Positions 185 through 61,473 of a stretch of 64,000 nt of DNA are shown in pieces (within the stretch, counting starts at the first letter, position 1; each line of letters begins with the position of its first letter). Where the stretch lies: NCBI RefSeq assembly GCF_964204645.1, contig NC_134031.1, forward strand, positions 15,745,307-15,809,306, given 5' to 3'. Position numbers and translations under genes: made by a program. The notes below the pieces were generated by a model. That model made no database searches. It was not told the origin of the DNA and saw nothing but the letters and a program-made list of their open reading frames with translations. Source of the stretch: Tubulanus polymorphus (taxonomy: Eukaryota > Nemertea > Palaeonemertea > Tubulaniformes > Tubulanidae).

Positions 185-3100
185 CGATTACTTCCACCTG
201 TATCCGTGGTAGCGCCATACAGTCATTACTCGTGGCGACGTCGGTGACGAATTTCTTGATGTATTCGTCGCAGGTTTTCGTCAACGACGCGTCCGCGAAC
301 CCGCTCGCGAACGATCGAATACCTACGACGAGATAATGATAAAGAGAGAGAGAGATGCAGCGAACACCGCATTAACCCTTTAATCGCGAATCGCTACATC
401 GGCGGACGACGTACCTATACAATTCATCGCGTTCAAATTGTCGGCTAGGTAATTAGAACAAGCTTCGGCCGCGCGGACCATCTTCAACCGCATCGCCATT
501 TTATAAACAGATTTGATATCGTGCTCTTCTACTTCGAGTCTGAAAGTCAAAAATAGAAAAAGTTGCAATGAAAAAATATTAGGATGCGGGAGACATGAAT
601 ATAGTTTTATGGACTTAGATAAATTCATCATTTTATGGTCCGATATCTATTAATGATTTAATGCGCTGTTATTCTACGAGATATACGATCAAAAGTAAGG
701 TCTTGAGTAATCGGCCATAAATCTAGCATAAAATCGCTTGCCACCGTTCAGCTGCGCTCGGCTAGAATATAAACGATCCGCCTAACTACCACAAGCCGAC
801 AGCCTTTAGAGTTAGACAGATTTTTCCGAACTACATGCCACTGAAGATGTATTTTCTGTTTTTTACAAATGTAAACACCTGATCAATAAGGTAAGTTAAT
901 GTGGCAAACATATATACATCATACGACCCGCGTTTATAGGCCAAGGTGAAGGAAAGAAGGTGAAGGTGTGATTTCAAGGTTGTTTACTCAAATGAGGTCA
1001 ATTACAGATTTCAACGGAACAGATTTTTTGCGAGTGTGATTCTAAGAAAAATTGCAGAAATACACTTCCCCCCATTTAGAGATTCCCGAGTTTTCCATGG
1101 TTTAACACAAAATTTACCGAGTGAATCTTCAGGCAAATGGGCAAATTTCCTCTTTAAGAAAATGCTACAATTCTTTCATTCTTTTGCGAATCACATATCA
1201 ATAAATGGACTTCCACAATTCAACAAATGAGCTTTCCCTGATTTCTTACAGATACTTCTGACTTCCCGAGGAGCTTTCCAGGTCGATGGCCACCCTGCAA
1301 ACGGCACACGGAAACTTTCCAGGATAGGTGCCAAAAATGCGACGAAACCACGATCGTTATTTTGATTGTAAGCCAATATTCCGATCGAGTTATCTCCTCT
1401 CAGCTCTCTCTCGAGATCTCAAGAGAAATATCTCGGTTATATTTACACACTCCGTGTAATAAATACCTAGACAGTTAGACAGTTATATATGTATAGTTGA
1501 GCTTTCTGCATTAAACAAAACGTCAAAACGGTTGCTAACAAATTATGACGAGTTACCAAAAATATGCTTCGGCGGAAAATGATCGCATTCCGAAAAAATG
1601 TTTTTCGTATAAATGTCGTTTTCGAAATCCGCTGAAGTACAGATGTGCGTAGTTTATTTTCGTAGATTCATTGGCGAAAAAATGAAATTCACTCGGTTTT
1701 GAATGATGAACACTTCAATGCACCAAGTATTAACTAGAATAGCGCTTTAATACCGAGGTGTATCTGTCTACCGTCCTCGAACTACCCAGACCCACTTACA
1801 ACAATAACGCTAATACCGCCTTCCCACTCAAGTATATCAGTGTCTACATTCCCCAAACTAAACACAGCAGCCCTACTATCATAAAATATTGCGCGTCGGG
1901 GTGTAGACAGGTAGAACTTCAGAACAATGGGATCACTGCAGTACAAAATGATTCAGAATTTTATGCAGAATTGGTAAGGACTGAATTATCTGATCAAACC
2001 CGTAGCCTGGATCCTCCAAGGGGGGAAGGTGCAATATAAACTACAAGTGGACCGAATCAGCATTTTTTGAGCTTATGGCCTACAACCCTAGTTTTGAATT
2101 CGACGTTTTCTAACAGAAAATACATACATTATATAGATGTACATGTATTCGAAACTCATGAATAAAACGTATTTCAACAGAAATAGGAACGATCTTTTTC
2201 TTTCAAGGGGACGCACCAACTCTGGTTATGGACCTGCTGATTATATAGAAGTTCCAACCCTACACTCGGATCGCAGGAAACCAACAACACAGGACCCATC
2301 GGGAATCCGCAATTCCCTGATATTTCCTTGACCTTAACCAAATTATGAAATATCTTCAGTGTTGGGCGTTTCTTCTCAAGAGGTTGCGTTCCTCATGCCT
2401 TTGGTATCCAGCTAGAGCAAAAAGATACCAAATATTTATATTCCCCACCTCACCCCCCTGACTTCAAAATCAGATTCAGAATCCCCTGGTTTTCGCCGAC
2501 TGCCTAAGAAGAACCGTTGGCTACAATGCTCTATTATACTCACTTGCCAGTGTAGACGTAATTGACGAGCACGTCGAAGTGTTTATAGTCGAAGTTGTTG
2601 AGTTTGTAATGCGAGTTCGGAACGCTTTCGTCCAGCGAAAACAGCTCCATCAGATACCGGCTCGACGACGCGAGCACGGCTTTGTGCGCGCAGATCTCGT
2701 GCGAGCCGACCTCCAGCGTCACGTCGCAGTACTGTCCGTTTTTGCGCAGCGTGTTCAAACACTGCAGTATGTCGGAGTGGTGTCGTTGGTCTTGAAACGT
2801 CAATTTCGTGACGACGGCGTTTTTGCGTTCGGTGTGCGCCGCGCCGTCGACCTCCGCGTCGTCGTCGTCGCCGTTCATCATTTGCGACGTTCCGTTTTTC
2901 AGGTGGTTCATCTTGAATTCGGCCGGTTCGTTCAACGACGACATCTTACAACTGTTCATCAAGATTTCTGCGAAGACAAGAGTTTTAAATACATTAGAAA
3001 TAACGAAAACGAACATCTTTTCATTAAACAGCAAAACATTTCTATTTCTATTTACTACAGGGGCCAGTTGCACAGTTGCGACTCAAGTCCAAAAGTGGTC

Positions 3101-14967: not shown

Positions 14968-17900
14968 CTAAAACGCATTCTGCAGGAGCTCCAAATAAGC
15001 AGGATGAAGATGAGTGTCATCAAATTCTGAAATAAATAAGAAAAAGTAACCTCAAAATTGATGTAATTTGAGCGGCACACATGTAGAATCTAAATTCAGC
15101 TCAACGAACCATAGATCGATTTCAAAGAACCTGCAGGTTTTAATAAATCTTTCTCAATGTCTAACCACTTCAAGGTGCCATGTTTTTCGACTCTACGTCT
15201 TAAAGCTTGGTTGAATCGAACGACAATCGGCCTGAATTAAAACGAAGAATTACATTTCAAAAGTCAAAAAGATGGATGCAAAAGTTTGATGGAATATTCA
15301 GTACCTGGTTACATCGATCACCGGTGCGATTGGATGAACGTAAATTTTCCATCTATATTCAATTTGAAGATTGTCTAATACCTTGATATAAATGTCTATC
15401 AAACATTCCATTGCTTCCTCCAGACTCTGAAAGGCAATGAGAAAATATTTCGTAAAACCATTGCCGCAGGCTACATTTCTGCACCCGAAAGAGCGATACG
15501 GGTACTTACATCGTAATAACACTTTTGCACGCACGTTGTCAAAGATTCTCTACAGTCAATTTCACCGAAATTCACGACGACTAAAGCGTTATTCGGTATG
15601 ACTTTGATCGCTGTAAAGAAGCCTTCTCTGGTATACAGCTTTTCCTCATGCCGTAAATGCCATATCTTCGTTCCAGTTGACAGAACGGGGTGCACTGTAA
15701 CAGGAGTACCCTTTTTTAACAAGAAAAGAAAATCCCCTATTAATAGAATACCGGTGATTTTTGAAATTCTACAGTTGAAGGTTAGTAGTTCTCACCTTAC
15801 AAAGCAGCTTCTGCCAGGCAGGAGTAATACAATGGCTGTCACTTAGAAAATAAAGGAAATTCTGAGAGTTCAAATCACTGCAGTTAATAACATCCGGCGG
15901 ACACTGTTTCATAACGAGTTGAATGCAACGGAAATAGGCAGCTTCATTTCGAATTGCTGTTTTGTGAAGATCTCGTCCCGGCCATAGGTGTTCTGTAAAT
16001 GGATATCGAAGATAAAGAAAGGTGTTCTGTAAATGGATATCAATGATAAATTAAGCTGTTCCGTAAATGGTTATCAAAGATAAAGAAACAATGTCTCTAA
16101 CCCTCACGAGAATCTAGCAGTTCTTACCCAAAATTGACATTAATTTTTGGACAATTCGCAAAGCTCCGTTGACGTAGAATATCTTCACCGACGTGAACAG
16201 AATGGCCGTAAAGAAGATTTCAATATTACCATATGGACGTTCACTACTGGTATTCGTGTTATCTTCGTACTGCAAACCTGCAGGGTATAATTATAGGTCC
16301 GTTCATAAAGTATGTACGGTATGCAAAATATTCAGGGGCCAGTAACACAGTCAAGACTTAAGTCCAAAAGTGGTCTTAAATCTTAAGACTGGTCTTAAGT
16401 TGTTAGATTGGCTATAGAACTAAGTTGGTCTTAGACTGTTCTTAAGTCAAAGCCATGACTATGCAACCGGCCCCAGCTGATTTTCTACCACTTCTTTTCA
16501 CAAACACAATTCGAGCATTATGTTATGTTAGGGAGACGAGGCCTGTTAATGCGTTATATGACACAAATCTAAAAATCTTAATTCAAATATTCTGAGCATT
16601 TGAGATTTGCTTTTCGAAAGTTTACAAGAATTTCAAGGGAAACGTACAATTCCATAAGTAGATATCCTCAGGTACAGTTTCAATTATGTTTAGATACTGT
16701 TCTAGTAGTTGTTGTTGGTGAGGCTGATGGACAGATGACGCGAGAGATTGAGTTTTCAACTGCGTCTTCATGAACTGAATGCACGCTCCGTGTTTTCCTT
16801 TCAACTGAAATGAGCAGAATTCATAATTTCTATTCTACACGCTCAAAATTTGGCTTCTTAGTTTATATTCATTTTTGCGACACGTACCTCAAGCAGATGC
16901 ATATAAGCGAGCAAAATGATAAGATCGTTTGGATCGCACTGAACAGCTTTGAATAGAATCTTCTCCGCTTCATTCGTCGCTGATTAGAAAAATTTAAAAA
17001 TTTATTCATTTCGATGTTTCGTCATAATGCTACACGAATAACCACAGCATTTTATACAAAGCATTTCACTTACCTCCATAGTTATACAACACTTCGTAAA
17101 GGACAAACAATGCTGCAGATTGTCTACCGATAATACTATAAGAGACCATTTACAATCAAATTACATATAATCCATGGGGAAGGGGTTCGATTAAGGGTCA
17201 AGGGACACGATGCCCACTTGGTGATGAAATGCTCGACCATCTGAAAATCTTGATACTGACGAGGCAAGTTTTTGAGCTGCACATTTGTTTACAGTGGATT
17301 CATATATAAAAATATTCAGACAATCCATCGAAGTGTCTTAAAAATAACTGGATTGCGTCTACGGACAATGAATGAAAAGTGGATGCAATAGCCTGCCAGG
17401 ACCCAAGTCCCAAATGGGATAGAAATTGACCAATTCTTCCGATATGACTGATACATGTTAGAGTGTTAAAATGGCCGGGGTAATAATACCAGAAAATATA
17501 AAGCATTCTTAGTAGCTTTGCTGGATTTAGCGCTATATAAGACACATATTATTATTATTATTATATCATATATAAGAATATTTGATATCAAACGAAATCA
17601 TCAATTTATATTGTGAGCTTTTTAATCGTATTGAAGCCAGTGAATCAAAAGTACTGGATACATACTTTTCAAGAATTTCAACTCCGCCGGGTTTCTGCAC
17701 CAGCTTACACAATACAACAGGAATCCTCGTGTCAGCTGAAAATAGAAATTAAGCCATCTACCAACATCCATTGTGGCTCGAGCGACAATCTTGAAACTAA
17801 ACTAACGTTAGATTATGGAACAGGGGCGGATCTCGGGGTAAATCTGAGGGTCTTCTCAGAATTCTAGGGGCACACCGAAAAGAAAAGGGCACTGATAACA

Positions 17901-20662
17901 CACCGTGCACAGCGGGCGAGGCTAACACTGCTTCAGCGCGAAGCCCTTCTGGGGGGTCTGAGGCCCCCTCCAAGACAATTTTGAGATTCCAGCACCGATT
18001 TGAAGCCATTTCCTGCATTTTGAGATTTTGAGTCATGAAACTGTTTTGCGAGCAAAATTTTTTGGGGCACTTAAGAGAAATTTTGAGGGTCTTCCAGAAG
18101 ACATGTAAGACCCATAAGATCCGCGCCTGTGGAATCTACCCAGCGTAGTACCTCTATCAAGCATCATCGCTGTGGTCGTAAGTTGTATTGACAGGAACAG
18201 TTTTTCATGGTGTGAAGAGATCAAGTCCGCGTATCTTACTGCAGCAGTTGCATGGTATGTATATTGTTGCATAACATTATGATAATGAATGATTGCCTTA
18301 TCCCGCATTCCCTGCAGTTCGTACGACTGAGCCAAAGCACACTGCAAGCGGATAAAATCATTAAGATGCTTCAGTGGTGTTGGAACAGCAGCTACTGTGA
18401 AAGCTGCAGCAATAATTTACTGAATGACATTTTCTTTCTTTGAATACTAAGTTTTTGTCGAAATTGAAGTAAATTCGCCACGGCAACATATTAGAACCTG
18501 TTAAAAATCAGCAATTGGCCACAGCAATCAAAAACTGCTTCCAACACCCCTTTATTCCTCAAAATGCGATATGTGTATAACAAAATGCTCACGAGTACCG
18601 CGTTCATACCTTAACATCGAACTGATCATTTCTGGGAAGATTTTTCATTTCATTTTCATAAATATCTGCGAATATTTTCTCGGATTTCGCAGCATTTTCT
18701 AACATCAAAAAACACTTCCCCAACCTACAAAACAAACAAGGCTGGATTCAGAGGAGGGTTTTGGAGGTCTAGACCCCACCGCCTTCCCATTGCCTTTTTT
18801 GTGAACTAAGCCGTATGTCAACTCCACAAACAATATATTCTTCAGATATTTCGAAATAATCATCAATACCTGAAAATTTAATTCTCATCTTCTCGGAATA
18901 TTGCATCTTTTGAAATGTATTTTTGTAAAATTTCGAAACGAGAAGGCTCTCTTAGACTTCCCTGCTAATTACCACTGCCGCTCTGGTAGGAACTTAAGTG
19001 GTACTTCTGATCCACCCTCTGCATTGACTCTTACATATCGATGGTTTTCAACAAAATGAAATACACGCGGAGTGCCTTCTTACTTTATTCGATGAAATAC
19101 ACTGCACGATTTCAGCTTTTTGAGCATTTTTGCATATTTCACAGCGACATCAGGACGTTTCACCGTTAGGAAGATATCAACTGGAAGGAAATTTGAATAA
19201 AATGAAAGTATGAGAACTCAACTTCACGCATTAAAACTATGATAGACTGTATTGGGATTCTTACCCATTCGTTCAAGAGCTTGAACATTAGTGGGATCTG
19301 ACTGGATAACAGTCTGGTATAGCGTGACAGCAGATTTCGTGTTTCCAGACTTCAATTCTGTGGCAGCTTTTTCACAAATTCTCTTCACCCTAGGAATTAA
19401 TGAATGTTCTTCTTAGACACCTGCCCACCCAACAGAATAATGAATCAACCAATGAATGATTTTTTATTCATTTCTCTGCACGATAAATGCTAATAGGATT
19501 AAATACCTGGCGCAATCAAATGATTTACTGTTAGATTGTTGTGGTCCGGATACTTTTTCATTGATGATGATATACAAATCTTCTCTATTTTTCAGCAGAG
19601 ACGTAATCTCTCTGTCTAAATCTAGATAGACTCTAAAATATACATTTCAGTATCCAATTTGATGAGCGAAAAATAGCCGTATTGACAACTTCGGTCATGA
19701 AAAAGAAGCATGATTTTCCATTCATACCCTTTAGAATTCTTCAGTTGAATATCGTTTACTTGAGTTGAACGAAGATGTTCAGCACCGGAATTCATGTACA
19801 ACTGAAAACAATATTGAAATTTATTAACAAAAACTTGTCGTGTTGTAAAAGCTGACTATGAGACGAAATTGGCCAACCTTGATAAGATCTCTAAGACTCC
19901 CTTTGTCACTTTTATGCCATTCGATAATACTTGTAGATGATTCACCATCTCCAGGCACATAATGCAAATAAAACTTCAATTTACTGCAACAACAAGTAAT
20001 CGTTCAAGTTTTGAAGACCAGGGGGGGGGCAGTTGCTCAAGAGTTGGTTAAAGATAACTGGAGGATAAATACCGTGTAACAATGAACTTTTAATTGTCAC
20101 TAGGTCAACTATCTACTTGTTAGCCCTAACCTACTTTTGAGGAACTGACCGCCTGTACTTTTGGTCATAAAACATCATTAGTTAGTAATGGGCGATAGGA
20201 ACGTACCTCTCGAGACCTTTCGTTTTCTCCGAAGGTGGTTTAACATTAGTGGATTCTTTCAGTTTCAGGAAGATGTCTTCTCGATTTTTCAAGTTGGATG
20301 AAACATCTAAATCCAGATCCAGCAATGTCCTGAAAGCAATTTCATACGATTAGATAGAAATTTCTTAATGAATCGTGGTTGAAAATACAGACAACGGTTC
20401 CACCAATTTTACCCCTTAGAATTAAATACTTGTATATCTCGAAATGCAGTCAGTAATTCTTTTTTCACTTTATCCGTAGTTGTAGAACTTATGAATTGCT
20501 GAAAGTAAACAGAGTCAACAGCTTTATGGAAAAAGAATTATAGACAGGGATTTAATAAAAGGCGAAACTAACCGTTATAACATCACTCAGAGTGCCTTTT
20601 TTACTTCTGTCCCATTCAAAAACCTGAGTACAAGCCTCATAGTGCACATAAAACTTCAGCAT
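14968..20662 (-). CDS. beta-grasp(x2)-TPR-SGNH hydrolase protein
   Basis: Twenty minus-strand exons: 20662(20665)-20573, 20498-20413, 20329-20207, 19983-19878, 19801-19728, 19632-19507, 19389-19265, 19180-19084, 18724-18610, 18341-18152, 17735-17666, 17135-17074, 16979-16888, 16804-16648, 16277-16128, 15992-15796, 15710-15510, 15426-15305, 15231-15131, 15026-14968. All phases agree, giving 780 residues from ATG 20662. Residues 1-82 and 100-182 are two copies of an LKFYxHY, EWxxSxKGxLxDxI, DIQxxNSKG, LDLD, LKNRED module that looks ubiquitin-like. Residues about 200-480 are TPR-type helices (AVTLYQTVIQSDPTNVQAL). The C-terminus is SGNH-like: nucleophile Ser607 in LSDSHC, a VNFGEIDCRE block (669-675) and Asp764/His767 in FDDTHLHP. 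No signal peptide is visible, so it is probably cytosolic; substrate unknown. The 5' end is unsure: the exon could be internal, with ATGGCGGAC at 21397-21389 as a first exon (MAD). Confidence 0.8.
15987..16085. repeat. three-fold ~35 bp tandem repeat carrying a splice acceptor
   Basis: The unit 'gtgttctgtaaatggatatc..gataaagaaag' occurs about three times. On the minus strand each unit reads as a ccatttacagAAC-like acceptor, and the copy at the exon edge is the one used at 15992. The other copies could act as cryptic acceptors. Confidence 0.7.
16335..16474. repeat. MITE-like element, GGGGCCAGTTG family, intronic copy
   Basis: Starts 'ggggccagtaacacagtc' and ends 'gactatgcaaccggcccc' within an intron of the TPR-SGNH gene. 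It is close in sequence to the copies at 47472 and 56671. Confidence 0.75.
17377..17560 (-). repeat. SINE 3' region with GCGCTATATAA...(ATT)n tail
   Basis: Holds 'gccggggtaataatacc', 'gcgctatataagac' and a run of att. The same tail motif occurs at 57590-57690 and, shorter, near 32390. It is a common form of SINE 3' end. It lies in the intron after exon 17735-17666. Confidence 0.5.
20022..20150. repeat. MITE-like element, CTCAAAAGTTGGTTAA family, copy 1
   Basis: Shares 'gctcaagagttggttaaag', 'taaccg/ggataa' and the inverted 'cctacttttgaggaactg' end with copies at 48706-48832 and 53911-54033. It lies within an intron of the TPR-SGNH gene. Confidence 0.65.
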
Positions 20663-20719
20663 CTTCTGTGTATAGAGAATCAAATGTTTACAGTTTGCCA
20701 AGTGAGTGAAAGGTGGAAA

Positions 20720-20773
20720 CATGATGATGATGATGATGATGATGATGACGATGATGATGATGACGATGATAAT
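20720..20773. repeat. (ATG)n trinucleotide repeat
   Basis: About 54 bp of atg/acg triplets near the 5' end of the TPR-SGNH gene. It produces spurious poly-Met and poly-Ile frames. Confidence 0.9.
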
Positions 20774-23034
20774 GAGTGATGCCAAACACTTAAGGTTTTC
20801 TCATCCTTTTCCATTCTTTATAGTGTATAGTGGACTAGTTGCAGAAGGGGCAGTCTTATTTTATGAAGCTGATATCAAATTCATATGTCATAAGCACATG
20901 CCCACCAACGGTGACATAATAGTCATGGCTCATATTGCATATTAGAGGGCAAGTATGGTCGGGGACTAGAGGGAGTCGAGGTACCGTATGGGGAATAAAG
21001 ACAAATTTAACATTAAATTAGGAAGTAGGCTAAATTTTAGTTAGTAACCTAATCGTTGGTGTAAGCTTTTTATAATCGGATGGGCTTATACCAACGAACA
21101 AAAGGTATAAGACTATGTGGTTTGTGAAAATATCCGATCGTGAAACTAAACCACAGTCAGGTTGGGTTACTGACTTGACTAGCTAAGCCTAAAGAGCAAG
21201 AGGGTTGTATTAAAAACATCGTTTAGGGATATATGATTTTTGTCAGTTGTAGGTAAGTATCTAATCTGGTAATTTTGAATAAACTTGAACGTCAGGATCA
21301 AGTTTCATGTCGTATACATAATGAGTTTGCGTTGTAAGGCTCGCTAATCACGGCCGATCAATTTTTGTTGAGTTCATATTCGTGGTACGTCCGCCATGTT
21401 GAAGTCATGTGACTTTAAACGTATTGCCTAAAATCCGGATTAGACCGTTACAAGTTGAGCATAAAACGCGGACCTGGGTAAAACAGATTTGTCATGCCCG
21501 GACACGGCGGGCTCTCGAAGAGATTGAACGAGGTAATATACTGTGTCTGGTTCTCTGCTGTCAGGCCGTGCCACCGAACAAATCATCTGGGCTGCATCAA
21601 CAGGGACTTGACACAAAAGGATTTTAACCCCAGTATCCTAGGTACTATATATAAAAAGACTTTTTATGTACAGTAAGTACCAAGGTTCTGGGGTCAAAAT
21701 CCGTGTCCTAGTCCCTGTGGCTGCAACCAGCTATTTTGAAAAATCCGTCGTTAGGTGTATCTCGATCTTGTGACCTCTCGATCTTGAAGACTAGAGAAAA
21801 TCGACACAAGACCAAAGAAAAGTGCAATAAAACACCGAATAGTTTCTTTTTTCTCAGATAATTTTTAATAGTCTTTAATCACCAACTCTAAAGATCACGT
21901 CAGTAAATTGATGTCAGTATTTATAAAACAGTGTGAACGCGATTGTTAAACGCTTAGTCGTCATATTAGTCAGTCAAGGTGAAATATGCTGATTTAAATC
22001 TATATGTTTATATTAATTCTATGGTTTAGACATATCGAGCTTAAAACTATATGTGTTTTCAATAAAAAACTCAGTGTTTTCTATTACCCGTAAACATTTC
22101 ACATTTACAACAACACACTGCTATTTTCTTTTATGTACATCAATAGTAACGCGATAACAAAATATATTCTGAATTAATCTTCTTAAAATACATCTAGCAT
22201 TTACTTTCATTCAACAAAATTAAAACCCACTATATAAACTATATGCAATGGGATACCCGCAGTGCTACTGTGGCAATCCAGGATTCCACGTATGACAGGC
22301 GAGGATCCGCCAGGTTCGCTAGTAGATAGTTGGTCGTCCGTATTCGATTTCTCCTTACGTTTTGATTAAATCTGAATGAACCCCTTAAATGAATCAATCA
22401 TTTATGAAAAATATGCCGATATCCGAGTAGAAGAATGAAAGTTGTGTATATTTGGTGAGTGCTGTGATAAGATTCAGGAGTATGATAGATTCAGTTCAAA
22501 GTTTTGACAATGGACGACCTACTGCTCGTCACGCTACCGGCTGGGATAGCTGGTTATGCGGGTTCCCTATTTCAAAGATTAAAAGCGAATCATTGCCTAA
22601 CGAAATTTATTTTATCAGTCTATCAAAACGGAGTCGATTTTAACGAATCTCTTTTTAATATTTTGAATTTATTGAAATACATCTAGTGGGTTTTAATCCT
22701 TATCTATTCTCAACGTCTGCGTGAAATTGGCTTTTTCATTCACTTTTAATCTCACGCCATTTTAGCGCCGCGTTATCAGACTAGAATTGCGGAACCTTTT
22801 TGTAGCGGATTCTCGTTCTCGGATTATATCTATTTTAATACTTGGTACCAAAAACCGCGGTTTAAGTTTGTTATTCTTATTTATTGTAATTTTTTGCGTT
22901 CATTTCTGGCTGGTAATAATCGTATAGTTTGTCGTGGCAGAAATCAGGATCTTCGCAGCGAGCGAAGTTTTTTCGTAATAGCGCTATAAAAAAACCCTTT
23001 GTCATCATCATTCCTTCAATCATGTTCTTCAATT
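20774..23034. other. spacer between TPR-SGNH gene and repeat-precursor gene
   Basis: No gene is defended here. The stretch contains the inverted 36 bp repeat at 21119-21154 and, at 22680-22740, a fragment of the hairpin repeat edge (catctagtgggttttaatcc). At 21389-21397 (minus) an ATGGCGGAC in good context might be the first exon of the TPR-SGNH gene. An AATAAA on the minus strand at 22885-22880, about 150 bp past the next stop codon, may serve the repeat precursor. Confidence 0.5.
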
Positions 23035-25458
23035 TCATTTTATGAATATTTCGGGTGATTTTGATTCCACCAGTTCCGGTTGACGTTCAAAAGCTTTCCG
23101 TTTTCGCCTAGCCCGAAATTCAGGTGACATTGATTCCACTAATTCTGGTTGGAGTTCGGGAGCATTCCGTCTCCGCCTGGTGCGAAATTCTGGTGACATT
23201 GATTCCACTAATTCTGGTTGGAGTTCAGGAGCATTTCGTCTTCGCCTGACCCGAAATTCTGGTGACATTGATTCCACTAATTCTGGTTGGAGTTCGGGAG
23301 CATTCCGTCTCCGCCTGGCGCGAAATTCTGGTGACATTGATTCCACTAATTCCGGTTGGAGTTCGGGAGCATTCCGTCTCCGCCTGGTGCGAAATTCTGG
23401 TGACATTGATTCCACTAATTCTGGTTGGAGTTCGGGAGCATTCCGTCTCCGCCTGGCGCGAAATTCTGGTGACATTAATTCCACTAATTCTGGTTGGAGT
23501 TCGGGAGCATTCCGTCTCCGCCTGGTGCGAAATTCTGGTGACATTGATTCCACTAATTCTGGTTGGAGTTCGGGAGCATTCCGTCTCCGCCTGGCGCGAA
23601 ATTCTGGTGACATTGATTCCACTAATTCCGGTTGGAGTTCGGGAGCATTCCTTCTGCGCCTGGCGCGAAATTCTGGTGACATTGATTCCACAAATTCTGG
23701 TTGGAGTTCGGGAGCATTCCGTCTCCGCCTAACCCGAAATTCTGGTGACATTAATTCCACTAATTCTGTTTGGAGTTCGGGAGCATTCCGTCTCCGCCTA
23801 ACCCGAAATTCTGGTGACATTGATTCCACTAATTCTGGTTGGAGTTCGGGAGCATCCCGTCTCCGCCTGGCGCGAAATTCTGTTGACATTGATTCCACTA
23901 ATTCTGGTTGGAGTTCGGGAGCATCCCGTCTCCGCCTGGCGCGAAATTCTGTTGACATTGATTCCACTAATTCTGGTTGGAGTTCAGGAGCATTCCGTCT
24001 CAGCCTGGCCCGAAATTCGGGTGACATTGATTCCACTAATTCCGGTTGGAGTTCAGGAGCATACCGTCTCCGCCTGACCCGAAATTCGGGTGACATTGAT
24101 TCCACTAATTCTGGTTGGAGTTCAGGAGCATTCCGTTTCAGCCTGGCCCGAAACTCACCTATCAATTCAGGCTCAATTACCGGTGCATTCCGAGCCACTC
24201 TCGAGCGGAACTCGGTCCTGATCTCGGGGGAGCTGTCTGTATCGACCAGTTCTGTCGAGCTATGACGTTTTCTCCTGTGCAATTCAGGCGATTTTTCCGA
24301 TGGATCGGAATATGTAAATTCGGGTTCTAATTCAGGCGTATCGCGGCGCCTTCGTCTCGTTTGGTGATAGAGTTCCGGAGAATAGATTATTTCCGGTTGT
24401 TGTCCACTTACAAATCGTATTTTTCTAGCAAATTCTGGTAGATATTCTGTATACAAACTACGTCTATCCCTCCGCGATCCTTTTGATTCAACGGCTTGCA
24501 GTTCAGCGATATTTTCTTCGCGTTTATCGACTGACTTGAGTTTTCCAACAGATCCATTTAGGTTTTTCTTCAACTTTCTGAGCTTAGCCACAAACTCTTG
24601 CGTCTTTCTGGACGCGGGATTAAGAACGGTGAGGTTAGTCCCCGATCGCGCGTGTCTCATTCGATTTCTCCCGATCTTCGTCACAAATTTCTTCACACCT
24701 GAAATCGATGCTTCGTGTACATTCTTTTGATTTGTCAACATCGTCTGGCCGCTCGTCTGGCTGTTTGTCTGGATGACGAAATCTAAACGTTTTCGCGATT
24801 GCAACCGATTTCTACCGAGCAGCTCTGGCAACAAATGACGACGGTGACCGCCAGTCATTTTGCTACTCTTCGAGTCGTATTTCTCTTTCGTTTCGCCATT
24901 AACTGCAAGTGACAAAAAAACCTCAAACTTAGTATTCTAAATGGCCACACCCGGTTTTTGACGTGTTAATGATGAGATTGTAAGCAGAGCACTCAGTATA
25001 CCAGCTAAGCCTGACTGGTCCCCGCCGCTTAATTCAAAGCAGAAACCCTCTAACAACTGAATCAATCGCCATATACTCAAAGGAGTAGTGATCGGCGCAT
25101 GGGATTGGATTAGAATCCAGGTTCCAAGTTCAATATCCAAGGGTATCTAGGTTTACAGCATTATGGACATCCCATTTTGTCAAATTTTCTTACGGAATTT
25201 GTTTTACCCGAAATGACAGTTGGCGGTGTTGTTGAATCTAAATTGTTGTTGATCAAAATTAAGAAAACATTTTTGTCTAAATTTTAAATGACGTAGCAGA
25301 ATACATAAAACAATTACGCATGTTGTTTCATGTTTCATGTTGAGTGTTCTATCCATATAACGGAAATCGAAATTTTGTTCGTACTTACCACATGTAAGAA
25401 TCAACAACACCAATGCAGAGACGCTGAATATCCAAGACTTCAATCCCGTATTAACCAT
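23035..25458 (-). CDS. secreted multi-copy repeat precursor with tetrabasic sites
   Basis: Two minus-strand exons: 25458-25389 and 24902-23035, joined at phase 1, giving 645 residues. Exon 1 is almost exactly a signal peptide (MVNTGLKSWIFSVSALVLL, then ILTC), with cleavage likely near residue 26. After about 190 lysine/arginine-rich residues come degenerate units (TPELEPEF.., SPELHRRKR, NAPVIEPEL) and then fifteen 23-residue units with consensus NAPELQPELVESMSPEFRA plus RRRR, and a decayed last unit (KAFERQPELVE). RRRR, RLKR and RRKR are furin/proprotein convertase-type sites, so mature 19-residue acidic peptides could be released. No Gly precedes the basic sites, so amidation is not expected. 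Alternatives are an unprocessed charged structural or matrix protein. I know no named family for it. Confidence 0.8.
23098..24132 (-). repeat. coding 69 bp tandem array, 15 units
   Basis: Fifteen near-identical 69 bp units encode the 23-residue peptide repeat. Differences are mostly single-base (for example SMSPEF to SMSTEF in two adjacent units, and ELVES to ELVEL in two). Such homogeneity suggests recent unequal exchange or gene conversion. The unit length is a multiple of three, which also leaves a long antisense open frame. Confidence 0.95.
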
Positions 25459-28318: not shown

Positions 28319-29172
28319 TCAAGACGATTTCTTTTCGAAAATCAAATTCTGCAATTCTTTTCTGATTTCTTTGCCCGTCATCAGATACAGGTAGAGATTA
28401 AACGAATAGTTTATCAACAAAATATCGGCGAGGGCGGCGAAAATGTTTGCTGATTGTGGATTTGTTCCGACGAAAGCGTTTATTAAAGCAGCAGGGAATG
28501 TTGTAACCATGAAGAAGATACACAGTAGCAGAACCAACCTGGTTACCTGGTTTGAGTATCTCGATGCTCGGGTTGTTTCCGATTTAACTTTTTTTCTGAA
28601 TAAAGCGATAGAAGTTATTGCGGACATGATAGTTAACGCAATAAACGGGGCTATGCAGATGATGATAGACGACAGCAAAGGCTGGCTAAATGCGGGCCCA
28701 TTTCTAATACAACCGTTGTCACTAACGTCGATAGTTACGAATAAAAAACTATGAATCAGCGCTAGGAAGCAGATAACGGAGAAGCAGAGTTTAGAAGCGG
28801 TAGTCGGGTTCCAGAAACGAGGACCTCTAAACGGAAAACAAACGACACACATTCGCTCGGTAGCTACGAGAACTAGCGTCCATGGACTGCTCGAAAGGCC
28901 AACTGTTACATAATACTCAAAAAACATACATTGAATTCGTGTTGACGGTTTGATCAGTAATTTCCTCCCATAAAATGCATAAGATATAAAGTTGATGTAT
29001 CTCATCGTATAATTGAGGAGAACCGAAGTGTCGCAGACGGCTAGTTGAACGAACATACGACTGAAAGAACGTCGCCATAGTTTACGTTGCCGCATCACTA
29101 CTACGATCAGCAGATTACCGATGAATCCTAGAATAAAACAAAGACTGACGATTGTGAGAAACAAGAAATTAA
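28319..29172 (-). CDS. rhodopsin-type (class A) orphan GPCR, seven-helix exon
   Basis: One exon encodes about 284 residues covering all seven helices. TM1 carries GFIGNLLIVVVM; TM2 carries LAVCDTSVLL (the usual Asp). Cys in IQCMFFEYY and Cys in the DNGCIRN loop form the conserved disulphide pair. ATERMCVVCFPF replaces E/DRY with ERM after TM3. TM6 carries FFMVTTFPAA (no Trp of CWxP), and TM7 carries NYSFNLYLYL in place of NPxxY. The frame ends in TGA. Translation upstream meets a stop, and an AAAG|TTAATTTC acceptor at 29172 opens the exon at phase 1, so the extracellular N-terminus is on an exon I could not find. The general form suggests a peptide receptor of the FMRFamide/orphan invertebrate kind; the ligand is unknown. 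Confidence 0.8.
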
Positions 29173-30640
29173 CTTTAATAAATTATTTGACGCCTGCGAA
29201 AAAATGAAGAATTTCTGGGATAAGCTAATGTGGAATTGCAAATTTGAAATCGAAGTTTTAAGAAATTTGGGGAATTATGAGATTTGGCGATGATACAGTC
29301 TTCGACTGGTCTAATTAAAAAAAAATTGTCAACTTGTGACCGACTTCGATTCACTTTTGCTCTAAGCTGGTCTGCAACTTCATTGCCTCCATGGTTGAAG
29401 AAAGAGCTCTTCTGATGTCTGCTTCATCATGACTTCGAGCATATCGTGTAGCCAGCCGGCCCGGTCCCGGGGCCCGGTTTGGCTGTCACTCGATATCCTA
29501 GACTTGAGTCTGGGTTGACATCGTCATTTAAATAACTTATTCATGTTATTCTGTATGAATTACCCATGTGTCTTGTATTTTGTATTTTCTTATTCTAAAA
29601 TTTGTAACTTTATTGAATTTTGGAATTTCATCCCGGAATTTCAATGTAATAAGGATCAATAAAGTATTGAATTGAATTGTCACCTTATACACATGCCATC
29701 AGTGGACGCGGAGCCGTATATGACAGCTATGCTATTATAGATTGCTAATCTCATGAAACCTGCATACCCCTAATATCGAACATATTTTCTAAAACATTTG
29801 AATATTGAAATTATTTGTTTACACGTTTTTATATAGACCGCTTGTAGCCGCCGATGAAATTCACGCCGGCCCTACTCAGATCGTAGATAGCTTCGTCATT
29901 CCACTAGCATCCCCATGTCAGGGTCTGACTTTTATATCAGACTTCCAAATCGTGTATACATCCGCCATTTAACCGAATAATCCGATTTACTTATCATTTC
30001 TATTTATGCCTGCCGCTCCTGATATAATCATACATCCTTTACTATTACAATACCTCTTAACATGATATTCAATGCAATATAACATTTCGACGTTCAAATA
30101 GAGGTCATTATATAATCACAGGGAGCCATTCTACATCTTTATCAATAATATTTTGCCAAATAGCTTGTATGTGTACACATAAACCTGTGACGTTTTGCAC
30201 ATCGATTTACGGTTGTCGTTTGTAAAATGACGCTGAATGGTTAACATTGTTTAAGTTTCATAATGGTAACGTTTTATAAGGCGTCAAAAAACCATAGATA
30301 AGTTCCGTTTATCGTAGTTGCAGCCAGTACGATGGACATGTAGATGATAGTGGGATTAGTGCGGTTCTGAGGAACTGAAGTTGCAGCCATTGCGTCGACC
30401 AATCAGACTATGCTCTCAATTAAAGCTAATTACTGAAACTATATATTGAAAGCTATGTAGATTTCACAAGCGTCCACGCCTTCTTTCATACGACCTTAGA
30501 TTCCACACTCAGTGTTGTTTGTACATGAATCTATCATAGCAGTTTCTATAAGAAAAACTTACAATGACTTTCCTCAAAGCTCAGAATTTTAAAAAAACCA
30601 CTTTTGAAGATAACAATTTTTAATGAATTCATATGATATA
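29173..30640. other. spacer with a retroelement 3' tail
   Basis: No exon is recognised, although the GPCR N-terminal exon may hide here. A stretch at about 29510-29690 ends 'caataaagtattgaattgaatt', the same tail found at 36700-36727, which marks two 3' ends of one LINE or SINE family in plus orientation. Confidence 0.5.
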
Positions 30641-31195: not shown

Positions 31196-32100
31196 TCAGG
31201 TAATTGAGTAAACAGGTAGTACTGTGTAAGTTAATTGATCTTGGTAAGAAATTTCGAGTTTTCCGCAACTAGTGTATAGAGTAGCTTTATCAGGTAAATG
31301 GGTAAACATATGTAACGAGAGAAATCCCACAATAACGAAGCCAAGATTGAAAAATTCTATATCAGAATGATTATATTTGAGGAGCAACGTTACGGCTAAC
31401 AACTGTTAGCCATCATCAGGCGTACTGAGAACAAAATAAAATAACAGGATATTTATACAAGAATATGACAAATGATAAAGATTAAAGGATTAAGATTAAA
31501 ATAATTAAATAACAAAAACCGGAACACTAAGGAAAGAAAACAAAGAAGGCAAACGACAAACTATAGGGGATGTAGTGCGAGATTAAAGTAATCTAAAAAC
31601 AGAGCCCAGAGGGTTCAAAGGCAGACAAACTAAGGGGTAATCAGACAAAAACTAAAGGCAAGAACATCAAAGGGATAATCAAGGAATGAGTGAGGGAGGG
31701 AGTGAGTGAGTGGAAGTGTCAAACGGAGGAAAACAAGCTAACGGGGTTAGAATAATGGGGGTACAAGGGAAGCGAGAAATTTAGAGATCAATATATTGTG
31801 AGGAGAAAAACCGTTATTCAAATTAACACATTTATCCACATTTTCAATAATAAGGGCAGATTCCATAATGTGACGTTTGGTTTTATCGGGACAGGGAAAG
31901 ATTATAGCGGCATTATCAAAATTAAAATTATGACTAGTTTCATAAACGTGATTAGAATTTTTGACGTCATTTTTATGTTCTCTGAGGCGCTTGTTCAAAT
32001 CACGCCCAGTTTTACCAATATATATTTTATTACAGACTTTACAAGGTATTTTGTATACACCAATGTTCAAATGTTTCGTTTTGCAGGAATTGTGAGTTAA
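31196..32100 (-). mobile_element. Penelope-like element, 3' fragment with GIY-YIG endonuclease
   Basis: The minus-strand frame 32070-31747 encodes a GIY-YIG domain: GVYKIPCKVCNKIYIGKTGR, then DLNKRLREHK and a downstream Glu in HIMESALI. This C-terminal endonuclease marks Penelope-like retroelements. The reverse transcriptase is absent, so this is a 5'-truncated copy. The stop is followed by non-coding sequence and a terminal-repeat-like block at about 31380-31430 with 'gcctgatgatggctaac' and 'gttagccgtaacg'. It cannot move on its own. Confidence 0.8.
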
Positions 32101-32192
32101 GTTATGACAAAGTTTATTATTGTAAGTGAAAACGAGTTACCGGGGGTAAACAGGTAGTACTGTGTAGGGTAATTAATCTTAGTATGAAATTA

Positions 32193-32520
32193 CGAGAATT
32201 TATTTATTCAAAAAATCTAAAATTCGGCGAACGTGCATTTGAGACATTTGCACCTACAGTGTGGAACTCCCTTCCGCAACCTCTCCGTGATATTGACTCT
32301 CTGCCAGCATTCAAAGCACAGCTCAAGACATTTCTGTCCAAGTCATCATCTTCGTCTGGAGAGCACCTTTGATAATAGTCCTGCTATTACAAGGCGCTAT
32401 AGAAATTTACAATCCTATCCTATCCTATCTCGATTTGAAATTTCTAAATTATTCTTTTGATTTGTATACATGGTGGGTTTTTATCTTATTATCCGTTCAC
32501 CACGTTTGAGTGTGGTAATT
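32193..32520 (+). mobile_element. composite: LINE C-terminal fragment inside a hairpin-repeat edge
   Basis: The frame 32184-32372 contains FGERAFETFAPTVWNSLP and a following LRDID..AFKAQLKTFLS, the C-terminal end commonly seen in CR1/L2-like LINE reverse transcriptases, ended by a 'tcctatcctatcctat' tail. It is bounded by 'gaatttatttattcaaaaaa' on the left and the 'ggtgggtttttatctta' edge on the right, both belonging to the hairpin repeat at 6191-6431. It looks like one element landing in another. Confidence 0.6.
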
Positions 32521-32699
32521 TTACTATTTTCAGAGTGTATTTTATTTAACTTTCGGGCAATAATTGAAAACTGATAGATCGTCAATGCGGAGCTGCCATT
32601 GTGTGAGCTCGTGTAGCATCGCTTCTGTCGGTAATTAGATTGATTGATTGATTGATTTTATTTTCATAGAACATAGTTTAGTATAATAATTTATCTTAC

Positions 32700-35680
32700 A
32701 AAATACCACAATGAACTATGAACTATGAAGGACTCGTCCAGAGCCTGAAGGTGGGGGCGATTTATGCTAGCAAGCGACTTTCCTACAAGATCAGAAATGA
32801 CATAAGCGTATTTAAAGAGGGTAAATTCGAATCCTGTTTTATAGAAATAATTTCTAAAACCGGAAAAAACGCTAGAAATATTATTGTTGGAGAACTATAT
32901 AGAATACCGGGAACTAGCGAATCTGATTTTTTGTTAGATTATCAAGGCATACTAGAAAAAATAAATCACGAAAGAAAAGATATAATCATTGGGATGGACC
33001 AAAACTTGGACCTCATCAAATCTGAAACCCACAGAAACACTGCTAGATTTCTTGATTTGAATCTCTCCTATGAAGTAATACCAACAATACTACGTCCAAC
33101 TAGAATCACACATAATACAGCCACCCTCATTTATAATATATATATAAGCTCAAAACTAACTGACCATTATAGATCATGCATCATCACAACTGACCTATCA
33201 GAACATCTGCCCTGTTATATATCAATTAAAGATAGGAACTACAAAATGAAAACAAAGGAAACTAAATTATTTCGAAGATTCAATCGAAGCAACTTAACCA
33301 ATATTAATAATGAACTCTCTGAAATTGATTGGGCTGTAATTGAAAACATGAACAGCGATGATGGGTATAGCTTTTTAATTGAAAAGCTCACTCCATCTTT
33401 AGATAGACATGCCCCCCCGACTGAAAGGAAAATTGGGCATATAAGGCTAAACAAAAATGATACCTTGTTTCTCCGCAGCGGCCGGGTCATTTTTGTAAAA
33501 TATGATAAAATTAATAAACAGTTCATTTCTATAGCGGCCGGGTCTGTTATGGTAAAATTGATCACGATTTAAAAAAAAGTAATGTATAGGGTAGATAGGC
33601 GGCCGGCCGGGTCAACATTTAAGCTCAGCAGAGCGGAGAAACAAGGTATCAATTTTTTTAGCCTAAAGATAGACGAACCATGGATGACACATGGTCTACT
33701 AACATCGTCAAAAAAGTGTGATCGTTTATATCGTAAGGTACTTGGTGCTCCAAAAAGTGATCCAAAATACGTAAGATATCTTAATTATCGAAATCAGTTG
33801 AATTATTTAAGAAGAAGAGCAAAGCATAGTTATTATGCGAATAAGAAACTTAGTTTTAGAAATAACAGTAGAAAGTTATGGGATTTACTAAAGACCACCA
33901 TAGGCAAACATAATGACAAATCATCTACTATTGAAAATTTTTCGCATTTCAGCGTGATAATCGCCGTCCCCAAAATTGATGGAAAAATTGAAAAAGACCA
34001 CAAAAAAATTAGTGACTCACTGTCTTTGTTTTTTAGTCATATAGGAAAAGAGTATGCCACTAAAGTCCCAACTTCTAAGCATTCATTTCAAGAATACCTC
34101 AATATCCATAACAATATTAACATTTTCTTTAGACCCACTGACACTAATGAGATCATTTCTTTAGTGAAATAATTACCAAATAAAAGTAGTACTGGTTTCG
34201 TTAACATTAGCAATAATCTCCTAAAACAAGTAATTTATACTATAGGCCTATGTGATCCGTTATGTACAATATTTAACAATTCATTAAGAGATGGCGTAGT
34301 ACCCAAATTAATGAAAATTGCAGAAGTTATTCCTATCCACAAAGGTGATGATAAATCCCAAGCAACTAACTACAGGCCTATCTCACTTTTACCCGTAATA
34401 TCTAAAATACTAGAAAAAATAGTTCACAACAGGCTATATAACTTTTTTTATTACGAACAACTTACTCTACAGCAGCCAATATGGGTACAGAGAAAATCAT
34501 TCAACTGCTCAAGCAATACTTGAATTAACCGGAAATATAATTAGTAGCTTCGACAATGGTAATAACACAATTGGAGTCTTCCTTGATCTGTCTAAAGCGT
34601 TTGACTCGCTCGATGTCCCAACGTTGATATACAAATTAGATAAGTATGGAATAAGCGGAATTCCATTGCAATGGTTGAAAAGTTACCTCAGTGAAAGGAG
34701 AATGTATGTAAAGGTCAACGGAATCAAATCAAATCTAACTAAAGTCGAATACGGAATTCCTCAAGGCTCTATACTCGGACCACTGCTTTTTCTTATATAT
34801 GTTAACGATGCCCATCAAGTTTTAAAATCCTGTAAAAGTATATTATTCGCAGACGAGACTAGCATATATATTACCGGAAAGAATCTTAACACTATTTTAG
34901 ATCTTCTGAAAGATGACCTATCTACACTGATCGATTGGTTCCATGCTAACAAATAAACAGTCAATTTCAGGAAAACTAATTGCATGATTTTTAGGCCCAG
35001 AAGTAAAAGTTTCCAAACAGATATAGATCTCATATTTGGTACTGAGAAAATAAGATCAGTAAAACAGTGTAAATTTTTAGGAGTACTTATTGATGAAAAT
35101 CTATCTTGTGAACAACAATTCAAACAAATCTGTTCAAAAATCAATAGAAACTTGTATTTATTAAGAAGAATAAAAAAATTTATACCTGCTTGGAGTAAGA
35201 AACTGCTGTATTATGGCTATATACATACACATTTATCTTATGCAGTGACATCGTGGGGCACTCTTCTCTCAAAAAAGCAAATAGACACCATTTTCAAATT
35301 GCAGAAAAGGGCAATCAGATATATCGATAACAGACGCTATAATGCCCCCACATCACACTTATTTAGAAAATATGATATAATAAAATTTGAAGACATAATA
35401 AATTTAGACCTCGCAAAAATTGGCTACAAATACTTCGAAGGAAAATTGCCCACCCCGAGCATTGTTCCAACATAACCAAGTAAACCACATACATAACACA
35501 AGATCAAGAAATTATCCACAATCTGCCCGTCACAAAACGAATATGTTCAATAAATCGTTTCTTAACAAAGTTCCAGTCATTTTGCAAACAATCGATAACA
35601 CAATCAGAAAATCTCCATCAATTCATTCATTCACCAGGCTCTACAAAAAACAGCTCATCAATAGATATTGAATATTCATC
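32700..35680 (+). mobile_element. decayed non-LTR retrotransposon (LINE, CR1/L2-like)
   Basis: Successive plus-strand frames show an APE-type endonuclease region (IIVGELYRIPGTSESDF, IIIGMDQNLDL, and TTDLSEHLPCY where SDHxP is usual). A reverse transcriptase follows: VIPIHKGDDK, NYRPISLLPVISKILE, FLDLSKAFDSLD, GIPQGSILGPLLFLIYVND and ILFADETSIY where FADD is usual. The C-terminus has LGVLIDENLSCEQQ and WGTLLSKKQID. Breaks are an inserted element at 33459-33650, a stop near 34170, a frame change near 34480 and a stop at about 34954. The change at the catalytic FADD motif and the breaks make it inactive. The 5' end is not defined; a (GATT)n run lies at 32636-32656. Confidence 0.88.
33459..33650. 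mobile_element. 192 bp inverted-repeat insertion nested in the LINE
   Basis: Perfect 18 bp inverted termini GATACCTTGTTTCTCCGC at 33459-33476 and 33633-33650 enclose sequence with repeated 'cggccgggtc' motifs. It interrupts the LINE frame between its endonuclease and reverse transcriptase. No coding capacity. It may be a MITE, or a snap-back rearrangement of local sequence. Confidence 0.6.
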
Positions 35681-38440: not shown

Positions 38441-52150
<13,710 letters not shown>

Positions 52151-60000: not shown

Positions 60001-61194
60001 TTACAATCCTTAAGGCGATAAAAGTAAATTTTATCCATTAAAATACAGGTAGGCCCATGTAACATTTTGAATATAACTTGATAAGCCATAAAGGCTATGC
60101 TTAAAAAGATAAGTCTTGAGAGCACTGAAAATACAATTAAGATTTTCTATCGTCTTTAAATCAGTAGGTAAAGCATTGCGAACAAGGACCAAAAACTCTA
60201 ACGATCTTACTTTCACAAAGTTTCAATCTATTGTATGGATTTAGTCAGTAAGCTGTCAGTAACCTGGACCCAGTTCCAGTCGTGAGTTGGAGTTACTCTG
60301 AGTAAAAGTAAGTTCATTTTCGATGAGTTAACTCAATTTGAGTCAAAGTCAAATCAGAACTCTGGAACTGGACCCTGGATATTTAAGCCCATCGGTTTGT
60401 AAAAGCTTACCACCAACGATTAGGCAACTAACTACAGGTCGTATAGAGTAGGCTCCAGTCTAGTACCTAGCCGTTGTTCGTTGTAGGGGAACCCGTAACA
60501 ACAACTATTATTCAGACTATTAGTAGGCCCTACCTGATGAATCAAGGATTGTTGGGTCGCTTTGCGTCCTTTGGCGTTTAATGATAGTTGGTTCTCTCTG
60601 AGGTAGCTGCTGCTGGTGCTGCTGCTGATCAGATCTCGGAAATCCCTGTAAAACGAACTTCTTCTCTGATCTATAAACCGGTTGATGATTATTCGTAGAC
60701 GTTGCTCTCTGAGGCTCGGTAGGACCCGGTTGCCCTTGCTGCGGATGCACAGTCGCTGTCGCTGTCGGGTTTTTACGCGGAGAACTACGTAACTGATTAC
60801 TACTCGGCTGCCGCTGTTCCCCGCTTTCCGCAGCCGCCTTCTTCGGGTTATTTGGCGCGCCTTCCGAATCCGAACTATAACTCTTCGGTCGAGATTTTTT
60901 CACTGGGCTTTTTTCGTTTCGTATATAATTCGTTTTCAGAAGGGCGATTTTTAACCCGGTGACGAAACGATCGAAGCTCAGCTTGCCGCTTCTAGGGGTG
61001 ATTTGTCTGAGAGAATCGAGCACGCCCTCCGGTAGACCTTCCTCATTCCCGTGCCAGTACAGCTGGATATCGGTCAGCTTAATGAATCCCGTATTTTTCT
61101 CGTCCAAAATGTCGAATAACATCCTCAACGATTTGACGAATTGTTCGGGAAGTCCGTCGATATTCCTGGTAGGTCTGTAAGAATTTAAATCCAT
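57089..61194 (-). CDS. SAPCD2: suppressor APC domain-containing protein 2 (SAPCD2)
   Basis: Six minus-strand exons: 61194-60534, 59891-59161, 58394-58251, 57891-57784, 57368-57297, 57214-57089; 613 residues (human about 394). Residues about 10-92 form the suppressor-APC domain with an EF-hand-like start (LPEQFVKSLRMLFDILDEKN, then EGVLDSLRQITPRSGKL). A long disordered Ser/Gln-rich middle (poly-Gln near TQTQQQQQQQ) separates it from a C-terminal coiled coil (VKKMKQLEQERDILIQGLQ, ARDWYKHQI, LEQEKSSLIKELFEAK), the order seen in SAPCD2. Vertebrate SAPCD2 acts at the cortex in spindle orientation; the role here is inferred. The intron after exon 57368-57297 uses a GC donor (CAG|GCGAGT); the nearby GT would break the frame. 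The extra length lies in the middle region. Confidence 0.93.
57580..57690 (-). repeat. SINE 3' region with GCGCTATATAA tail
   Basis: Contains 'ggctggggtaataacacc', 'tgcgctatataaatga' and an (ATT)n tail. It is the same family as 17377-17560 and lies in a SAPCD2 intron. Confidence 0.5.
57946..58225. repeat. TTAA MITE, CCCTTTCAGTGC family, decayed right end
   Basis: Left end TTAAAACCCTTTCAGTGCG is intact. The right end 'gcaccaaaattgttttaa' has lost the match, and one internal palindrome is truncated. It lies in a SAPCD2 intron. Confidence 0.7.
58395..59160. other. SAPCD2 intron, no gene
   Basis: No exon is visible. Near 58760-58800 and 59040-59085 are 'ggcaggatcc..ctgga' and 'ggggggttcggacccccc' motifs, similar in tone to the fragment near 17820-18130, probably another dispersed repeat. 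Confidence 0.4.
60265..60376. repeat. inverted-repeat element, TGGACCCAGTTCC family
   Basis: Left 'ctggacccagttccagtcgt', right 'ctctggaactggaccctgg'; inner 'gttactctgagt' and 'gagttaactc'. It lies in the large SAPCD2 intron. Confidence 0.7.
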
Positions 61195-61473
61195 TTCGAT
61201 GACCTAATTGAGTCAAAATAAGGAGAAATTAAACCGAGATTTGTTGTAAAAAACATAGAAATGTCAAAATTGTGGAGCCGAATGAATCTCGGAGTTCGAA
61301 ATAACTGGAGCGCTCCCTTTATAGGAGCGCTCCAATTTTGCCATCGGTTCGAATCCGTTTTACTGATTAACATTAACGTACACTATGGAAACACAAAATT
61401 ATGCTTGACGAAAGCCAGGTTCAATTGATCCGCATTCGAAAACTACTCCAACAATAAACATCATTTTGATCTA

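Follow-up and report, generated by a model that had tools for sequence, protein, structure and literature searches.

A candidate multi-peptide precursor: a two-exon gene with 15 near-identical 23-residue units

Within the 64,000-nucleotide stretch of DNA analysed here (the window), a two-exon gene on the minus strand (25458-23035) encodes, by a splice model read from the sequence, a product of 645 amino acids which, we think with fair probability, is a secreted polyprotein cut into 15 near-identical acidic peptides and their relatives, these being probably signalling peptides. Among the readings weighed, a secreted multi-peptide precursor is the most economical, and the points that we count for it and against it are given below together with the alternatives on which they bear.

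Gene structure and repeat array

The features of the gene are collected in Table 1. The ATG at 25458 stands in an A-rich context, the stop codon ends at 23035, and the intact chain is about 73 kDa, with its sole cysteine lying within the signal peptide. The signal exon joins the second exon in frame over a GT-AG phase-1 intron, and this we count in favour of a precursor. The first-pass annotation had placed the ATG, the donor, the start of exon 2 and the end of the gene exactly to the base, and the TATA-like element, signal-peptide exon and phase-1 intron that it described are all present at the sequence level. The N-terminus has the makings of a signal peptide, with Lys at position 7, the hydrophobic core IFSVSALVLLILTCV (9-residue mean hydropathy up to 3.3) and V-N-G ahead of the likely cut, which would probably fall after ...CVNG by the -3/-1 rule for signal-peptide cut sites. 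In exon 2, the 256 codons ahead of the first full unit are all open, which has a chance of about 1e-7 at the local base composition.

Table 1. Features of the gene and of its repeat array (positions in the window)
Feature	Positions	Strand	Remarks
TATA-box-like element TATATAA	25533..25539	-	starts at 25539, 81 bases upstream of the ATG
Exon 1, coding; MVNTGLKSWIFSVSALVLLILTC plus the first base of the next codon; predicted signal peptide	25389..25458	-	
Predicted intron, 486 bases, GT-AG, phase 1	24903..25388	-	donor GT at 25388
Exon 2, coding, stop included; begins VNGETKEKY...	23035..24902	-	
Four degenerate units	24133..24459	-	between basic sites, limits set by eye
Degenerate unit SLYTEY...YHQT-RRRRR	within 24133..24459	-	
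Degenerate unit DTPELEPEFTYSDPSEKSPELH-RRKR	within 24133..24459	-	
Degenerate unit HSSTELVDTDSSPEIRTEFRS-RVAR	within 24133..24459	-	
Degenerate unit NAPVIEPELIGEFRA-RLKR	within 24133..24459	-	
15 complete 23-residue units NAPELQPELVESMSPEFRA-RRRR	23098..24132	-	69 bases each
C-terminal degenerate unit KAFERQPELVESKSPEIFIK and stop	23035..23097	-	without terminal basic run
AATAAA polyadenylation-signal-like hexamer	22880..22885	-	150 bases beyond the stop codon

Tandem Repeats Finder reported a single array (23050-24153; period 69, 16 copies, 93% matches, 0% indels), and the 15 near-identical tandem units described earlier were recovered as such, the commonest form being NAPELQPELVESMSPEFRARRRR. 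The residues that vary among these units are 1 (N/D/Y), 7 (P/T), 9 (L/F), 12 (S/L), 15 (P/T) and 19 (A/V/T), so that of the variable positions first proposed 1, 12 and 19 hold, 14 does not, and 7, 9 and 15 are to be added. The basic run varies at residues 21 (L once) and 22 (K once); the tetrabasic edges had been recognized correctly as RRRR, RLKR or RRKR, with the RLRR of one unit missing from that list.

The four degenerate units upstream of the full ones differ in length. The diverged units keep PEL/PEF, SPE and a basic edge, which again counts for a precursor, and when two units are laid out in fours (N-APEL-QPEL-VESM-SPEF-RVRR-RR and D-TPEL-EPEF-TYSD-PSEK-SPEL-HR), a constant core of PEL, PE[LF] and SPE[FLI] emerges. 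Between residues 27 and 280, PE[LF] was observed 7 times against 0.14 expected from composition shuffles and SPE 3 times against 0.11, from which we take the upstream degenerate units, annotated from the start as carrying the same motifs, to be real.

The DNA is identical between units 8 and 12 and between units 9 and 11, a sign of recent turnover of the array and a further point in favour of a precursor. Differences in unit DNA averaged 4.1 at distance 1, compared with 6.0 for the single pair at distance 14; on average, resemblance thus falls off slightly with distance along the array, the pattern that unequal exchange would produce. Unequal crossing-over or gene conversion, combined with selection on the peptide, may be what keeps the copies similar. 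Within the set of 15 units we counted 10 synonymous and 11 nonsynonymous distinct codon changes (N/S 0.36, P=0.0185), with a pairwise pN/pS of 0.27; the test supports constraint, and the synonymous bias is counted in favour of a precursor. In the other five frames, N/S was 1.14 to 1.25 in three, 0.75 in one and 0.36 in one, the last (P=0.0215) being an antisense frame which is open. This equally low value means that the test does not by itself single out the coding strand, and we count it against the precursor; the choice of coding strand rests on the splice sites, on the signal exon and on the open stretch ahead of the array.

Copy number, relatives and genomic setting

The whole protein was searched against its own genome (267.8 Mb in 77 contigs, the window lying on contig C7), which returned 33 rows: the gene itself, two from the opposite strand of the gene and 30 from other places, 4 without an internal stop and 26 with stops (E below 0.001 in seven of the 26). 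The four stop-free matches (L023, L025, L026, L027) proved on reading to be satellite-like repeats. The stop-bearing rows were distributed as 17 with loci of their own (L006-L022), one in L025 and eight left unread, and all 17 of the former were tandem arrays with a period of 23 or 69 bases. These arrays are found in contigs C2, C6, C8, C10, C11 and C15; their consensus units differ and their matching frames carry stops. The satellite period of 69 equals the length of the coding repeat, and the shared 23/69-base period is probably coincidence plus search selection. The 193-aa N-terminal part matched its own locus and one further place (E 4.98, with a stop). Because the other matches examined were satellite arrays, the gene appears, going by those matches, to be single-copy in its genome.

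It is conceivable that the gene itself is a satellite-like repeat open by chance, or a coding array without selection, since, with a period of 69 bases, a frame that is open stays so from unit to unit (393 codons in one antisense frame) and the genome holds many arrays of the same periods. We nevertheless regard this as very improbable, keeping in mind the signal exon and splice sites, the length of open sequence before the first full unit, the presence of the same motifs in the diverged units and the synonymous excess, though the last is equalled in one antisense frame. Moreover, the array matches elsewhere bear stops in the matching frame.

Searches of Pfam and NCBIfam gave nothing over cut-off (best sub-threshold Pfam model DUF2205, E 0.097), and neither the PDB sequence search nor the viral and prokaryote contigs yielded a match. 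One phage record did match (E 4e-18, 38.3% identity) and was rejected as a relative; its matching frame is opposite in strand to an annotated hypothetical protein, and we therefore put the match down to chance and biased composition. No believable relative was thus found among the Pfam, NCBIfam, PDB, phage, viral and prokaryote collections and the own genome, and the want of a homologue that would show conservation is counted against the precursor. The novelty claimed at first pass stands with respect to these collections; as they are not a broad animal set, the failure to find relatives there is a poor guide to novelty within the animals. No description of the peptide was found in the literature searched, from which supplements were excluded and subscription papers mostly so. 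Multi-copy precursors evolve fast and their homology becomes hard to detect at growing distance, according to PMC11087051.

In the neighbourhood of the gene, about 3 kb from it, a 287-aa open frame (28319-29182, minus strand) encodes a divergent class A GPCR (Pfam 7tm_1, E 4.9e-12; Srw, Srsx and Srg models also above their cut-offs), an adjacency that may be chance. Retroelement remains occupy 31747-35475, with a GIY-YIG domain frame (31747-32136, minus) and a reverse transcriptase frame (34423-34956, plus), and, judged by eye, the adjoining open frames seem to belong to the same LINE. Many short frames at 15298-20800 (minus) are, by eye, possibly exons belonging to a single larger gene that includes TPR-like parts; four of these frames were compared with Pfam, none exceeding the cut-off, and the sole PDB match, at 18033-18416, was to an engineered TPR protein (E 0.0085). 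At 41257-41347, a 46-base sequence is repeated perfectly in tandem, in two copies. Frames with a BTB domain (2540-3082, minus), a kinesin DUF3694 domain (41699-42223, plus) and a SAPC2 N-terminal domain (60520-61203, minus) are conserved neighbours useful for synteny.

Elsewhere in the genome, the insect odorant-receptor family had only 3 matches, the best of them in an uninterrupted 386-aa frame; such uninterrupted frames are known for gustatory-receptor-like genes of other animals, and an insect origin is not supported. COX1 had no match in the genome, while 8 of 14 control genomes matched, so that no mitochondrial marker was obtained, and the STING family had none in this genome or in the control genomes. 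A neurophysin search found two loci, the first of which has beside it a vasotocin exon (a signal-like segment followed by CFVRNCPPG-G-KR); PMC7181382 lists this peptide for the annelid Platynereis. At the second locus (L029, G000:C2:16103728-16103934), a motif scan found no classical nonapeptide exon in about 9.5 kb upstream, and this locus may be a diverged vasotocin-related precursor. In PMC8557429, two vasotocin-related precursors are reported in nemerteans, phoronids and some brachiopods, a single one appearing to be the rule in annelids and molluscs; L029 without a classical nonapeptide exon would fit some of the nemerteans described there, without being proof. Going by these findings, the animal is a bilaterian and most likely belongs to the spiralians.

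Predicted processing and alternative uses of the chain

On the reading we prefer, removal of the signal peptide would be followed by cutting after each R-X-[KR]-R by a furin-like or prohormone convertase and by trimming of the arginines by a carboxypeptidase. The products would be 15 peptides of 19 residues, nearly identical, acidic and without amidation (NAPELQPELVESMSPEFR[A/V/T] and its variants), along with about five diverged relatives. The 19-mers may be shortened to end in SPEF or SPEFR (17-19 residues), the candidate product forms being NAPELQPELVESMSPEF, ...SPEFR and ...SPEFR[A/V/T]. The commonest 19-mer has a pI of 4.09 and is without cysteine, in line with the acidic peptides announced by the first-pass annotation.

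Of the 20 unit starts considered (those of the 15 full units, of the 4 diverged ones and of the tail), 19 follow R-X-[KR]-R and the remaining one follows R-X-X-R, the boundaries of the diverged units having been picked by eye, partly for their basic residues. Within residues 27-280, R-X-[KR]-R occurred 5 times against 0.94 in shuffles (P=0.001). The furin-type consensus R-X-[KR]-R tolerates RLRR and RRKR, the forms produced by the changes in the full-unit basic run, L at P3 in unit 2 and K at P2 in unit 15, respectively; in the abstract of PMC9036578, the cleavage consensus is given as Arg-X-X-Arg. The product carries repeated similar peptides between putative convertase sites, and cleavage of the precursor is likely.

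Two patterns described in PMC8557429 were also considered. At least 5 dibasic sites spaced 5-25 aa, the pattern of a spiralian secretome screen, are present in the precursor, but also in 674 of 1,000 composition shuffles, because the protein is so arginine-rich; the pattern therefore adds nothing here, and we count its frequency in shuffles against the precursor. The amidation pattern given there (Gly before a basic site, repeated) is absent from the precursor, which agrees with the lack of an amidation Gly noted at the outset and is likewise counted against it.

The chief alternative, which we consider unlikely, is a structural protein that is secreted and charge-patterned but stays uncut, for instance of mucus, cuticle, tube or shell matrix; in it, the alternation of acidic PELQPELVESMSPEF blocks with RARRRR blocks would hold the chains together by charge. 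The composition of the mature chain (17.4% R, 14.2% E), the regular 23-aa period and the AlphaFold helices of low confidence across the PEFRARRRR stretch fit such a protein, and the possibility that a 23-aa unit with acidic and basic blocks in alternation is a structural motif is counted against the precursor. The same AlphaFold model, made from the single sequence without an alignment, has a mean pLDDT of 50.2 and no confident fold, which is counted for the precursor. Against a structural protein stand the fit of the unit edges to a protease consensus and the diverged units, which vary in length yet keep basic edges and PEL/SPE. In addition, a secreted chain in which R-X-[KR]-R sites are so numerous would be expected to encounter furin on its passage through the Golgi.

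If the peptides served in defence or were surface-active (antimicrobial, or of mucus), the precursor would be cleaved alike and the use would differ. Many-copy layouts do occur among defence peptides too; however, most antimicrobial peptides are cationic, whereas the 19-mer is acidic and has no cysteine, and we hold this use to be improbable. Released peptides would most likely act as secreted signals, and a neuropeptide or hormone role is the leading, although unproven, use. Cumulatively, the interpretation as a multi-peptide precursor agrees with the anatomy of the gene, whereas cleavage, expression and function stay inferred.

Comparison with known precursors

Pedal peptide/orcokinin-type precursors have a signal peptide, no amidation and basic cleavage sites, typically KR. 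By analogy theirs is the closest layout, a single precursor containing numerous, almost identical copies of a short peptide alongside variants, and many copies without an amidation site, as found here, while the sites differ, being tetrabasic here instead of the typical KR. Membership by sequence is not supported: a three-copy repeat of the starfish SMP peptide, the sole family member compared, gave no local alignment with the precursor at E<=100. According to PMC5656890, the SMP precursor contains 12 copies of a 16-residue peptide and 7 copies of three related ones.

The lineage-specific spiralian proneuropeptides ND peptide, AxxxDF and LKFL, set beside the precursor by their description in PMC8557429 and not by sequence, are likely from the same large animal group, and the precursor could be identical with one of them; they come from a screen of transcriptomes by dibasic or amidation patterns, of which the dibasic repeat is found here too. 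Cnidarian multi-copy precursors also combine several peptide copies with processing sites (PMC11087051, PMC7523074), but the present genome, with its neurophysin loci and vasotocin exon, is bilaterian. A tandem RFamide query, run with no positive control, found no match in the genome, and a sea anemone origin is not supported.

We tentatively raise the possibility, clearly more doubtful than the precursor reading itself, that the peptides represent an undescribed unamidated spiralian signalling-peptide family with the core xPELxPE[LF]...SPE[FLI], about 20 copies per precursor, tetrabasic cutting of furin type and a receptor of its own, possibly an orphan class A GPCR. From the diverged units it can be seen which residues stay constant, namely PEL, PE[LF], SPE and the basic edge. 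As an apparently single-copy gene with 15 near-identical peptides lacking an amidation site, it would stand out as a candidate for peptidomics and for pairing with a receptor.
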